DNA of 64,000 nt from Actinomycetes bacterium (GTDB taxonomy: Bacteria; Actinomycetota; Acidimicrobiia; Acidimicrobiales; Aldehydirespiratoraceae). The stretch lies in NCBI GenBank assembly GCA_024276495.1, contig JAJRXC010000061.1:1-64000 (forward strand). Reading direction: 5' to 3'. The notes beneath the pieces are model-generated. The model saw only the letters and a list, made by a program, of their open reading frames with translations, ran no database searches and was not told the DNA's origin. The position numbers were made by a program, and so were the translations under genes. Positions 28,483-32,083 of this stretch are shown piece after piece; positions within the stretch are counted from its first letter, which is position 1; each line of letters begins with the position of its first letter.

Positions 28483-29658
28483 ATGGCCGTCACCGAAAGC
28501 GCCGCCCCGGCGAAGAAGGAACGCTGGTCCCACCAGTGGAAGGAACTGTTCGACGAAGTCATCACCAGCGGCCTGTGCACCGGCTGCGCCGGATGCGTCA
28601 TCTCCTGCCCCCACGACGTGATCGGCTACGAACACGAGCCCGGCGCCTACACGCCGTTTCATCTCGAGGAGGAGCTCGGCCCGTCCGACTGCGTCCACGG
28701 CCAGAAGGGTTGCACATCGTGCACCCGGGCATGTCCCCGCTTTCGCATGTGGGAACCGGAAGCCGACCGACACCTGTTCGGACGCGAGCGCGAGCCCGAC
28801 GAGGTCTCGGGCATCTACTCCGACATCGTGTTGACGAGAGCGAGCGACGACCACGTGTACGAGACCGGACAAGACGGTGGCCTGGTCTCCGCGATCCTCA
28901 TCTGGTGCCTCGAGAACGACATCATCAACGGCGCCCTCACCTCCGGCGTGGAAAACCTGCCGAACGGGGATCCGGGATGGAAGGCGTTCCCGATGGTGGC
29001 CACCAACCGCGACGAAGTCCTGCGCGGCGCGGGCAGTCGCTACACCTACTCGGCCAACACGATGGCCTTCCCCGAAGCCAAGGAGCGCGGCCTCGATCGC
29101 CTCGCCCTCGTCGGGATGAGCTGTCAGACGTCGGTCGCCCCCGTGATGTGGCATCGCAAGATCGGCAAGGTCTCCAAACCGTTCAAGCTCAACATCGGGC
29201 TGTTGTGCTCCAAGTCGTTCGACGACTCGCTGTTCGACGAGCTCTTCGAGGTCAAGTACGGCCTCAAGAAGGAAGACATCGCCAAGATGAACATCAAGGG
29301 CGTCTTCCAGATCTGGACCAAGGACGGCGGGTATCACGAGATCAACCTGAAGGAGTGCCACGCCTGGACCCGCGAAGGATGCCACCACTGTCCCGACTTC
29401 GCGGCCGAGCACGCCGACATCTCCACCGGCGGAATCGGCAACACCACCGACTGGACCCTCACCATCATCCGCACCGAGCTCGGCCGGGCGATCATCGACG
29501 CCATGGTGCGGGACGGCGTCATCGAGACCCGCCCCGGCGACGACGACCCCGGCGCGATCGCCTTGATGCACAAGCTCGCGGCGAAGAGTCGCGCCCGATG
29601 GCCGGAGTGGGCGCAGCCCGCGGCCCGGGTGGGAATACCGGAGAAGAAGTCGGGTTGA
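28483..29658 (+). CDS. Coenzyme F420 hydrogenase/dehydrogenase beta-subunit family iron-sulfur flavoprotein
   Basis: The 391-residue protein has a ferredoxin-type cluster site near residue 32 (GLCTGCAGCVISCPHDV) and a second cysteine group (CVHGQKGCTSCTRACP, about 72-88), followed by the FrhB-type flavin domain with QDGGLVSAILIWCLEND and GMSCQTSV. Proteins of this family carry FAD and Fe-S and move electrons between F420H2, ferredoxin or other carriers. It is not beside hydrogenase subunits, so it is probably a stand-alone F420-linked or ferredoxin-linked reductase in the cytoplasm. Its stop is 7 bases before the start of the selenoprotein, so the two are likely cotranscribed and may work in one redox pathway. 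Confidence 0.85.
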   Translation: MAVTESAAPAKKERWSHQWKELFDEVITSGLCTGCAGCVISCPHDVIGYEHEPGAYTPFHLEEELGPSDCVHGQKGCTSCTRACPRFRMWEPEADRHLFGREREPDEVSGIYSDIVLTRASDDHVYETGQDGGLVSAILIWCLENDIINGALTSGVENLPNGDPGWKAFPMVATNRDEVLRGAGSRYTYSANTMAFPEAKERGLDRLALVGMSCQTSVAPVMWHRKIGKVSKPFKLNIGLLCSKSFDDSLFDELFEVKYGLKKEDIAKMNIKGVFQIWTKDGGYHEINLKECHAWTREGCHHCPDFAAEHADISTGGIGNTTDWTLTIIRTELGRAIIDAMVRDGVIETRPGDDDPGAIALMHKLAAKSRARWPEWAQPAARVGIPEKKSG

Positions 29659-29665
29659 CAGACCC

Positions 29666-30280
29666 GTGCACATCGATTTCTGGGTGGATCCGATTTGACC
29701 CTGGTGTTGGGTGACGGCCCGTTGGGTCGTCGACGAGATCAAACCGGCCCGTGACCTCGACATCACGTGGCAACCGATCAGCCTGCTGTTCAAGAACGAG
29801 CCCGATCCCGGCTCCGACTACTTCAAGGCGAGCGAGTTCACCCACAAACTGCTGCGGGTGATGGAGTCGGTGCGCGCCGCCGAGGGCGACGACGCCGTTT
29901 TCGACCTCTACTGGGAGTACGGCCGGCGCATCCACCACGACCAGACCCGTGACTTCACCGCGTTCGACGCCCTCGACGCGATCGGCCACGACACCGCCCA
30001 CGCGGCGGCGTTCGACGACGAGTCGTGGGATGCCGAGATCCGCACCCGCATGGATGTCGGCCTCGCGCTTGCCGGCGACGACATCGGCACGCCGATCATC
30101 GCGTTCGACGACCGGGCCGGCGTGCAGCAGGCCTATTTCGGTCCGGTGATCACCCGGGTGCCGCCCACCGACGACTCTCTCGCCATGTGGGACGCCTTGA
30201 TGACCATGATGAACATCGACGGCTTCTGGGAGCTCAAGCGGACCCGAACCGAACGGCCCTTCTTCGGCGAACGACCTTGA
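29666..30280 (+). CDS. DsbA-fold, Rv2466c-like mycothiol-dependent reductase; putative selenoprotein with a UPWC active site
   Basis: From the GTG at 29666 the frame reads VHIDFWVDPI, then TGA (29696-29698), then PWCWVTARWVVDE, and on to a stop at 30278. In the family of Mycobacterium Rv2466c (a DsbA-like mycothiol-dependent nitroreductase) this place is FW-DP-CPWCW, so the TGA replaces the first, nucleophilic cysteine of CPWC. The second cysteine is kept (C14). The rest matches the family throughout: MDVGLALAGDDIGTPIIAFD, AYFGPVITRVPP and the end WELKRTRTERPFF. A 21-base SECIS-like hairpin follows the TGA. The predicted product is 204 residues with Sec at position 11. Starting instead at the GTG at 29711 would remove the active site. 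It is 7 bases after the F420-type gene and overlaps the thioesterase start as TTGA. A sequencing error (TGC to TGA) is the main alternative. Confidence 0.82.
29712..29732 (+). promoter_or_regulatory. Putative bacterial SECIS element
   Basis: Bases 29713-29720 (GACGGCCC) pair with 29724-29731 (GGGTCGTC) in an 8-bp stem with one G-U pair, leaving the apical loop GUU; a U-G pair can extend the base. The loop G is 23 bases after the last base of the TGA. Known bacterial SECIS elements lie just downstream of UGA with a short stem, a small loop with a G at its first positions, and a loop 16-37 bases from the UGA. All these conditions are met. Confidence 0.7.
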
Positions 30281-30850: not shown

Positions 30851-32083
30851 TCACAGCACCTCGTCGAGAACGGTGAGGACGCGGGCGACGTCGTCGGCCC
30901 GGTTGTAGTGGACCATCGACACGCGCACGACGCCGTCGTCGGGATCGAGCCCGAGCGCGGTGATCAACCGGTGGGCGTAGAAGTGCCCGTGACCACACGC
31001 GACCCGCGCCGCGATCAGCGCGCCGTAGATCTCCGCCGACGACCGACGGCTCGAGTGAAACGACACGGTCGGCGCCCGCACAGCCGGGTCGGCGACGGGC
31101 GCACCGACCACCGTCACGTCGTCACGGTCGGCGAGAAAGGCGAGCAGCGGGGCGACGAGCTCCCGTTCGTGTCCGGCGAACAGGGCACCGACGGCTCGGA
31201 TCCGTTCGACCGGGTCCGCCACCGGGTCGAGATGGTGGGCGTGGAGGAGGTCGTAGTAGTCGACGATGCCGGCGGTCGCGCCGATCACGGCGTGGTCGGG
31301 ACCGGCAGGGGTCAGCCGCGTGTCGGGCCTGCCCTCGTTGAAGAAGTGACCCTGATGGGCCACCGCCTCGAGCAGAGAACCGCGGGTGTACATCATGCCG
31401 ACGTGGGGACCGTAGGTCTTGTAGGCGCTGTAGAGATAGACGTCGCAGTCGAGCGCGTCGACGTCGACCGCGCCGTGGGGGGCGAACGACACACCATCGA
31501 CGACGATGTGGCCACCGACGGCGTGGACGCGGGCCGCGACATCGGCCACCGGATTGATCGTCGCGGCGACGTTCGAGGCATGGGTCATGGCAACGAGCCG
31601 GGTTCGTTCTCCGATCAGCTCGTCGAGGGCGTCGATGTCGAGGAGGCCGGTCGACGGGTCGACCCTCCACTCCTTGACCACGATCCCGGTCTCGGCCAGT
31701 CGCCGCCACACACCCGAGTTCGCCTCGTGATCCTGTTCGGTGACGACGATCTCGTCACCGGCGAGCCACATCGGCCGCATCGCCCGAGCCAACACGTAGG
31801 TGTTCTGGCTCGTCGACGGCCCGAAGTGGATCTCGTCGGGCCCGGCGTTGAACGTGGCCGCCATGACCTGACGGGACCGCTCCATCGCCGCAGCAGCGAC
31901 CTGAGACGGCGCCGACCCCCACCCGGGCTGCACCTTGGCCCGCGAGAACAACTCGGTGAGCAACTCGACCACCGGCCCGGCCGCGTAGCTCCCGCCGGCG
32001 TTCTCCAGATGGGCCCACCGGGCCGTTTCCGGGTCGGCGAAGGCGGGAAACCGGGCGCGGACGAAGTCGAGGTCGAGCGTCAT
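30851..32083 (-). CDS. Cysteine desulfurase-like class V aminotransferase
   Basis: The 410-residue protein is a PLP enzyme of aminotransferase class V. The PLP lysine is in YLYSAYKTYGPHVGMMY near residue 220, HIVVDGVSFAPHG contains the Asp that contacts the PLP ring nitrogen, and FGPSTSQNTYVLARAM binds the cofactor phosphate. The start DLDFVRARFPAFADP matches the cysteine desulfurase-like subfamily (TIGR01976) rather than SufS, and the SufS/NifS catalytic-cysteine loop is not evident. The reaction is therefore uncertain. It lies on the opposite strand to the selenoprotein operon with nearly 190 bases between. Confidence 0.82.
   Translation of the reverse strand: MTLDLDFVRARFPAFADPETARWAHLENAGGSYAAGPVVELLTELFSRAKVQPGWGSAPSQVAAAAMERSRQVMAATFNAGPDEIHFGPSTSQNTYVLARAMRPMWLAGDEIVVTEQDHEANSGVWRRLAETGIVVKEWRVDPSTGLLDIDALDELIGERTRLVAMTHASNVAATINPVADVAARVHAVGGHIVVDGVSFAPHGAVDVDALDCDVYLYSAYKTYGPHVGMMYTRGSLLEAVAHQGHFFNEGRPDTRLTPAGPDHAVIGATAGIVDYYDLLHAHHLDPVADPVERIRAVGALFAGHERELVAPLLAFLADRDDVTVVGAPVADPAVRAPTVSFHSSRRSSAEIYGALIAARVACGHGHFYAHRLITALGLDPDDGVVRVSMVHYNRADDVARVLTVLDEVL

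Follow-up and report, generated by a model that had tools for sequence, protein, structure and literature searches.

A putative selenocysteine-containing member of the Rv2466c/Mrx2 reductase group in Acidimicrobiia

A gene in the window, i.e., the whole 64,000-nt stretch of Acidimicrobiia DNA that was analyzed, is best explained as encoding a selenocysteine (Sec)-containing reductase of the Rv2466c/Mrx2 type. According to this explanation, which is given a probability of about 0.88, an in-frame UGA is decoded as Sec, Sec11 acts as the nucleophile and the enzyme is regenerated by a thiol. That the gene is a real selenoprotein gene, coding for the Sec-containing Rv2466c-type reductase of the original prediction, is supported by the UGA itself, the Sec machinery of the genome, the exchange of Sec and Cys codons between related genomes, a hairpin present in the UGA genes and the predicted Rv2466c fold. 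Judging from the sequence, Sec would be inserted at residue 11. The features of the locus are the following.

28483-29658 (+): FrhB/FdhB-like coenzyme F420 hydrogenase/dehydrogenase beta-subunit protein (PF04432/PF04422)
29666-30280 (+): Rv2466c/Mrx2-like (PF22234) selenoprotein gene that starts at GTG, ends at TGA and codes for a thioredoxin-fold reductase of 204 residues
29696-29698 (+): in-frame TGA, the putative Sec codon U11 of U-P-W-C at the nucleophile position, as placed by alignment with the first Cys of CPWC
29705-29707 (+): C14 codon (TGT), presumed resolving cysteine by comparison with Cys22 of Rv2466c
29713-29731 (+): SECIS-type hairpin with an 8-bp stem, GACGGCCC/GGGTCGTC, and an apical loop GTT starting 22 nt after the TGA

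The gene and its protein family

Translation from GTG 29666 to the terminator TGA at 30278-30280 yields a single internal stop, the TGA at 29696-29698. It occupies residue 11, the position of the first Cys of a CPWC motif of which P12, W13 and C14 are retained, and in a phmmer comparison with solved sequences this residue aligns with Cys19 of the Rv2466c chain. Across the orthologs, 76 distinct genes have a TGA at the identical codon, in every case with a C thereafter, and the Cys orthologs that were inspected carry TGC or TGT at the equivalent codon. Conservation at the same codon across dozens of assemblies rules out a sequencing error or a chance TGA. Unrelated stop codons elsewhere are not seen in the relatives with TGA at codon 11: this TGA is their one inner stop, and their terminator is located at codon 205-213. 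Over the 76 UGA genes the terminators are spread between TGA (45), TAG (22) and TAA (9), which indicates a genuine C-terminal end. At the codon that corresponds to GTG 29666, 66 of these genes have ATG, GTG or TTG, and the other 10 have none of the three.

The protein matches the Pfam family PF22234 over residues 10-192 (E 2.8e-36, 125.8 bits, with a curated cut-off of 27). There is also a match to the DSBA family PF01323 (E 1.9e-6, 28.2 bits, with a gathering score of 25.6). None of the NCBIfam models matches the window protein at 1e-3, and a scan of 35 members with the same collection gave weak matches, none of them seen over cut-off, the best being TIGR00411 at 0.0028, a model that the window protein itself matches at 0.084. 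The phmmer search against solved sequences returned four matches, i.e., three Rv2466c entries and one Mycobacterium leprae protein. An AlphaFold2 model built with 35 homologs, in which Sec was modelled as Cys, reached a pLDDT of 96.0 and a pTM of 0.91. With this predicted model, the top matches of VIA-align 2 are the M. leprae and M. tuberculosis Rv2466c structures (Z 25.3 to 23.2; for 4zil, Z 25.1 over 195 residues with an rmsd of 2.0), followed by DR2335 (Z 18.8) and by FrnE of Deinococcus (Z of approximately 13), which we take to be the representative of COG2761. Foldseek places the same entries on top and adds no other family. Among the 35 aligned members, the invariant columns include C/U11, P12 and P143, and C14 is nearly invariant (at least 90%).

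The window protein thus has the fold (Z 23-25), the place of the motif and the whole length in common with Rv2466c/Mrx2 (PF22234; PDB 4nxi, 4zil and 5xur, and 4wkw from M. leprae), to which structures it is 30-35% identical. DR2335 of Deinococcus radiodurans (DsbA-like, 7dk9/7dka), the next-best solved fold, shares 17% identity with it and is not an entry named Rv2466c. Unlike in Rv2466c/Mrx2, the CxxC motif with a Cys nucleophile is not found in the window protein, as the UGA lies at the nucleophile position and the second Cys is kept, which makes the protein a Sec variant of the group instead of a plain member. In these respects the original prediction is borne out: it had described a frame open on both sides of the TGA, a TGA falling at the first cysteine of CPWC with the second cysteine and flanking residues retained, and a resemblance to the Rv2466c family along the whole length. 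Two further PF22234 paralogs in the genome of the window (L020 and L022) have Cys at the site, but their motifs read CPFA and CPWA, so that the second Cys is missing; the CPWA motif also occurs in distant homologs of the phylum.

The protein could also have been catalogued already, as a member of the 'DsbA-like' UxxC selenoproteins (pfam01323/COG2761) of marine metagenomes, a possibility that has to be taken seriously although its odds are somewhat below even. Predicted DsbA-like UxxC selenoproteins appear in catalogs from the Sargasso survey of 2005 onward (PMC1088965, PMC2398784, PMC1794560, PMC5029168, PMC9312934, PMC13188914). The Sargasso Sea survey lists nine such sequences under COG2761 (PMC1088965), the GOS data contain 63 UxxC sequences as DsbA 1 (pfam01323), commoner in marine samples (PMC2398784), and a 2026 review includes a DsbA-like form 1 with PF01323 and UxxC (PMC13188914). 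The window protein, with its UPWC motif, likewise has Sec first in UxxC and passes the PF01323 gathering score (28.2 vs. 25.6). However, its best family is PF22234 and not PF01323, no NCBIfam model recognizes it at the above threshold, and the Rv2466c structures fit its predicted fold more closely than FrnE does (Z 23-25 vs. approximately 13). Moreover, the words 'mycothiol', 'nitroreductase', 'Mrx' and 'PF22234' do not occur in the main text of the 2026 review (PMC13188914). The catalogued proteins are described under a broad DsbA label, and none of the papers found calls them Rv2466c/Mrx2.

Proposed catalytic cycle and reduction partner

In Rv2466c, Cys19 is described as the nucleophile and Cys22 as the residue closing the disulfide, which is reopened by mycothiol (PMC11841060), and the protein is termed mycothiol-dependent (PMC7052010). 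If this cycle is transferred to the window protein, the UGA at 29696-29698 would be translated as Sec by means of tRNA-Sec and SelB, with the hairpin at 29713-29731 as a guide. Sec11 would then attack the oxidized substrate, and Cys14 would resolve the adduct with formation of a selenenylsulfide. Regeneration of the enzyme would fall to a low-molecular-weight thiol, presumably mycothiol. The protein is probably cytosolic. Mycothiol is a plausible reductant, and the same genome contains candidate genes for its synthesis.

L185:1105-2289 (+), L186:686-1801 (-) and L185:2305-3696 (+): two MshC-like ligases, one of them in tandem with CysS

These ligases score 416.7 and 406.1 bits, under the NCBIfam MshC cut-off of 485.1. 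Both score higher on the MshC model than on the CysS model, and the first also exceeds the CysS cut-off. In the family of the window, the MshC model is matched at 1e-30 in 50 of the 51 genomes, many of which have three matches.

The sub-threshold scores of the ligases leave some room for a Sec reductase of the same fold with a partner other than mycothiol, e.g., ferredoxin, or F420H2 by way of the FrhB-like protein, which we nevertheless consider unlikely. The FrhB-like gene ends 7 nt before GTG 29666 and lies upstream in all 43 UGA loci of the family with a usable flank (the 44th had just 50 nt), as well as upstream of the Cys ortholog in G024, the one family genome with such an ortholog. However, it is absent from the available flanks (245 to 4,030 nt, so that it could lie further off) of the other 32 distinct UGA loci. 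In genus g1, moreover, the FrhB-like and UGA genes are apart, by approximately 1.4 kb in L090, L091, L113 and L118 and by 2.5 kb in L213. A P450 gene on the opposite strand separates them in L113, and in L213 the intervening DNA contains an IS481-type transposase (Pfam) together with an opposite-strand ORF that, on visual comparison, is closely similar to the P450 of L113. The FrhB-like neighbor thus looks like synteny more than like a shared operon, and an operon partnership was rejected because the synteny holds at the family level only and the genes are separated in genus g1.

Another neighbor, at 30851-32083 (-) and convergent with the reductase gene, encodes a cysteine-desulfurase-like class V aminotransferase that is found nearby in many genomes of the family. 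It weakly matches a Sec lyase model, which may reflect superfamily likeness only.

Decoding of the in-frame UGA

The genome to which the window belongs (4.33 Mb, 111 contigs, 97.4% complete) contains tRNA-Sec, SelA, SelB and SelD, all over their cut-offs. SelB (275.3 bits) and SelA (394.9 bits) adjoin each other on contig C79; the other two components are located as follows.

C79:69528-69619: tRNA-Sec, 64.6 bits with an Rfam cut-off of 47, called SeC(tca) by ARAGORN
L018 (G000:C48:14587-15504): SelD with one in-frame TGA, 368.6 bits, over cut-off

Strong hairpins follow the in-frame TGA of SelD, which is probably a selenoprotein itself. Within the family, selA is detected at 1e-20 in 50 of the 51 genomes (in 49 over cut-off). 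The exception is G024, which is also the single family genome with a Cys ortholog (TGT), and its best match to the SelB model (202 bits) is below the cut-off of 242.25. In the class sample, selA is present in 24 of 25 genomes with the UGA gene and in all 11 genomes with a Cys ortholog (48-64% identity), so that selA does not separate the two forms at this level. The one UGA genome without selA is that of the gene L074/L190 (G338:C79), where searches for selA at E 1e-60 and for selB at 1e-40 give no match; this assembly, G338, is a draft of 160 contigs, and a draft gap, contamination or recent loss are possible causes.

Besides the machinery, the region just downstream of the UGA is informative. 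The stem of the hairpin begins 14 nt past the UGA, and its apical loop contains a G, which figure legends present as a feature of bacterial SECIS hairpins (PMC1794560, PMC1088965). All 8 pairs are formed in 71 of the 76 distinct UGA genes vs. 1 of the 24 Cys orthologs with at least 44% identity; 7 pairs are formed in the other five UGA genes and in one of the Cys orthologs. The comparison started from 158 loci with the codon, of which 137 are distinct, and 37 non-UGA rows below 44% identity were left out. The mean hairpin energy is -13.5 kcal/mol for UGA genes vs. -5.3 kcal/mol for Cys orthologs. Pair 4 is G-C, G-U or, in three related genes, A-U, and is mismatched in one gene; four UGA genes lack the loop-closing pair only. 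The full hairpin is also retained in the Cys ortholog L079 (G077), where it perhaps reflects a recent change from Sec to Cys.

Codon choice in the UGA genes points in the same direction. The normalized synonymous entropy is 0.05-0.36 in five stem columns vs. a mean of 0.61 in 62 others (p 4.8e-4), and no such effect is seen in the Cys genes, in which just one stem column qualified. In or beside the stem, the top codons are GTG for V16 (100%), ACG for T17 (95%), GCC for A18 (99%), CGT for R19 (78%), GTC for V21 (93%) and GTC for V22 (96%), with a mean top codon of 69% over the 62 other conserved columns; for T17, the Cys genes have ACC at 50%. Low codon entropy occurs outside the stem too, as at least 8 of the 62 conserved columns are at 0.41 bits or below. 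Taken by itself, the hairpin of the window gives a modest signal (48 nt, z -2.47). In an 81-nt fold it is absent and a different fold is predicted (z -0.43), and 12.7% of the synonymous recodings of the window form all 8 pairs. As the signal of the single sequence is weak, the argument from the hairpin rests on its conservation.

Decoding of the UGA as cysteine or tryptophan, through near-cognate readthrough or Cys insertion, would be compatible with the sequence taken alone, but is very improbable in view of the full Sec machinery of the genome, of a hairpin that the UGA genes retain and that 23 of the 24 Cys genes have lost, and of the TGT codon in the sole family genome without detected selA. 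A genome-wide reassignment of UGA is ruled out, as TGA terminates both the upstream gene (29656-29658) and the selenoprotein gene itself and thus serves as a regular stop codon here. The idea that the UGA truncates the gene, which would then be a pseudogene or code for a shorter protein, can practically be dismissed: a mechanical start-to-stop ORF list does contain a 189-residue ORF from GTG 29711 that lacks the active site, but dozens of genomes conserve the position of the codon and the residues that precede it, Cys orthologs span the site, and the window protein is 61-82% identical to the full-length orthologs of the family. Since the plain ORF call begins past the UGA, gene finders that are blind to Sec would misname the gene, and the expectation that standard gene calling would leave a protein without an active site is in line with the same list.

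Distribution, exchange of Sec and Cys, and meaning

All 51 genomes of the family have a match to the protein. Full-length orthologs are present in 45 of them, 44 with the TGA, in each case at codon 11, and one (G024) with TGT at this codon; in two of the remaining genomes the ortholog runs off a contig, and in four there are paralogs only. In the class sample, matches at 1e-35 occur in 62 of 296 genomes, 25 of which have TGA at codon 11. At the level of the phylum, 89 of 396 genomes match at 1e-40, and an active-site TGA is found in G000, G049 and G052, all from the class Acidimicrobiia. Ten other phylum rows marked as containing one TGA all have Cys at the active-site codon. The same holds for G283, a class genome marked likewise, in which the TGA is near the C-terminus, and for the one inspected of the four phylum rows whose internal stop is TAG or TAA. 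A pattern scan of named genomes gave 98 stretches, the best 80 of which (79 loci) include 78 that cover the codon, 29 with TGA and 49 with Cys. Among these best 80, the TGA loci carry titles of Acidimicrobiia or of taxa belonging to it (with Ferrithrix, counted here by its taxonomic placement), except for three titled Actinomycetota or Actinomycetes. Those with Cys come, among others, from Leucobacter, Rothia and two Desulfobacterales MAGs. By record titles, the UGA form, in which Sec replaces the nucleophilic Cys of Rv2466c/Mrx2, is thus seen in the class of the window only, the search having covered 396 genomes of the phylum and, by the named-genome pattern scan alone, other phyla.

The U/C exchange at this codon in related genomes extends beyond the TGT of G024. 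The label changes six times on the best tree and five to six times on bootstrap trees, with branches of good support requiring three of the changes. Midpoint rooting was used and basal support is weak, so that the tree does not fix the direction of the changes.

A literature search limited to the main text of openly accessible papers found no published description of an Rv2466c/Mrx2 selenoprotein, and neither DsbA nor mycothiol occurs in the main text of the deep-Sep paper (PMC12013277). The original remark that no Sec form of the Rv2466c group was known to have been described therefore stands as far as the name goes, since none is called so in the literature found, but has to be qualified because the DsbA-like UxxC bin, in use from 2005 on, may include some. 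There is a fair chance that some members are already present in this bin without being recognized. The protein is regarded here as an established type of enzyme, Rv2466c/Mrx2, in a new Sec form. The chances are about even for the wider proposal of a previously undescribed Sec mycoredoxin-2 that is old in Acidimicrobiia and has repeatedly exchanged Sec and Cys, i.e., a mycothiol-using actinobacterial reductase that gained selenium chemistry. The finding would extend the use of Sec to an enzyme group that is described as activating nitro prodrugs in mycobacteria (PMC11841060), and the natural Sec/Cys pairs inside one clade would offer a means to measure what selenium contributes.
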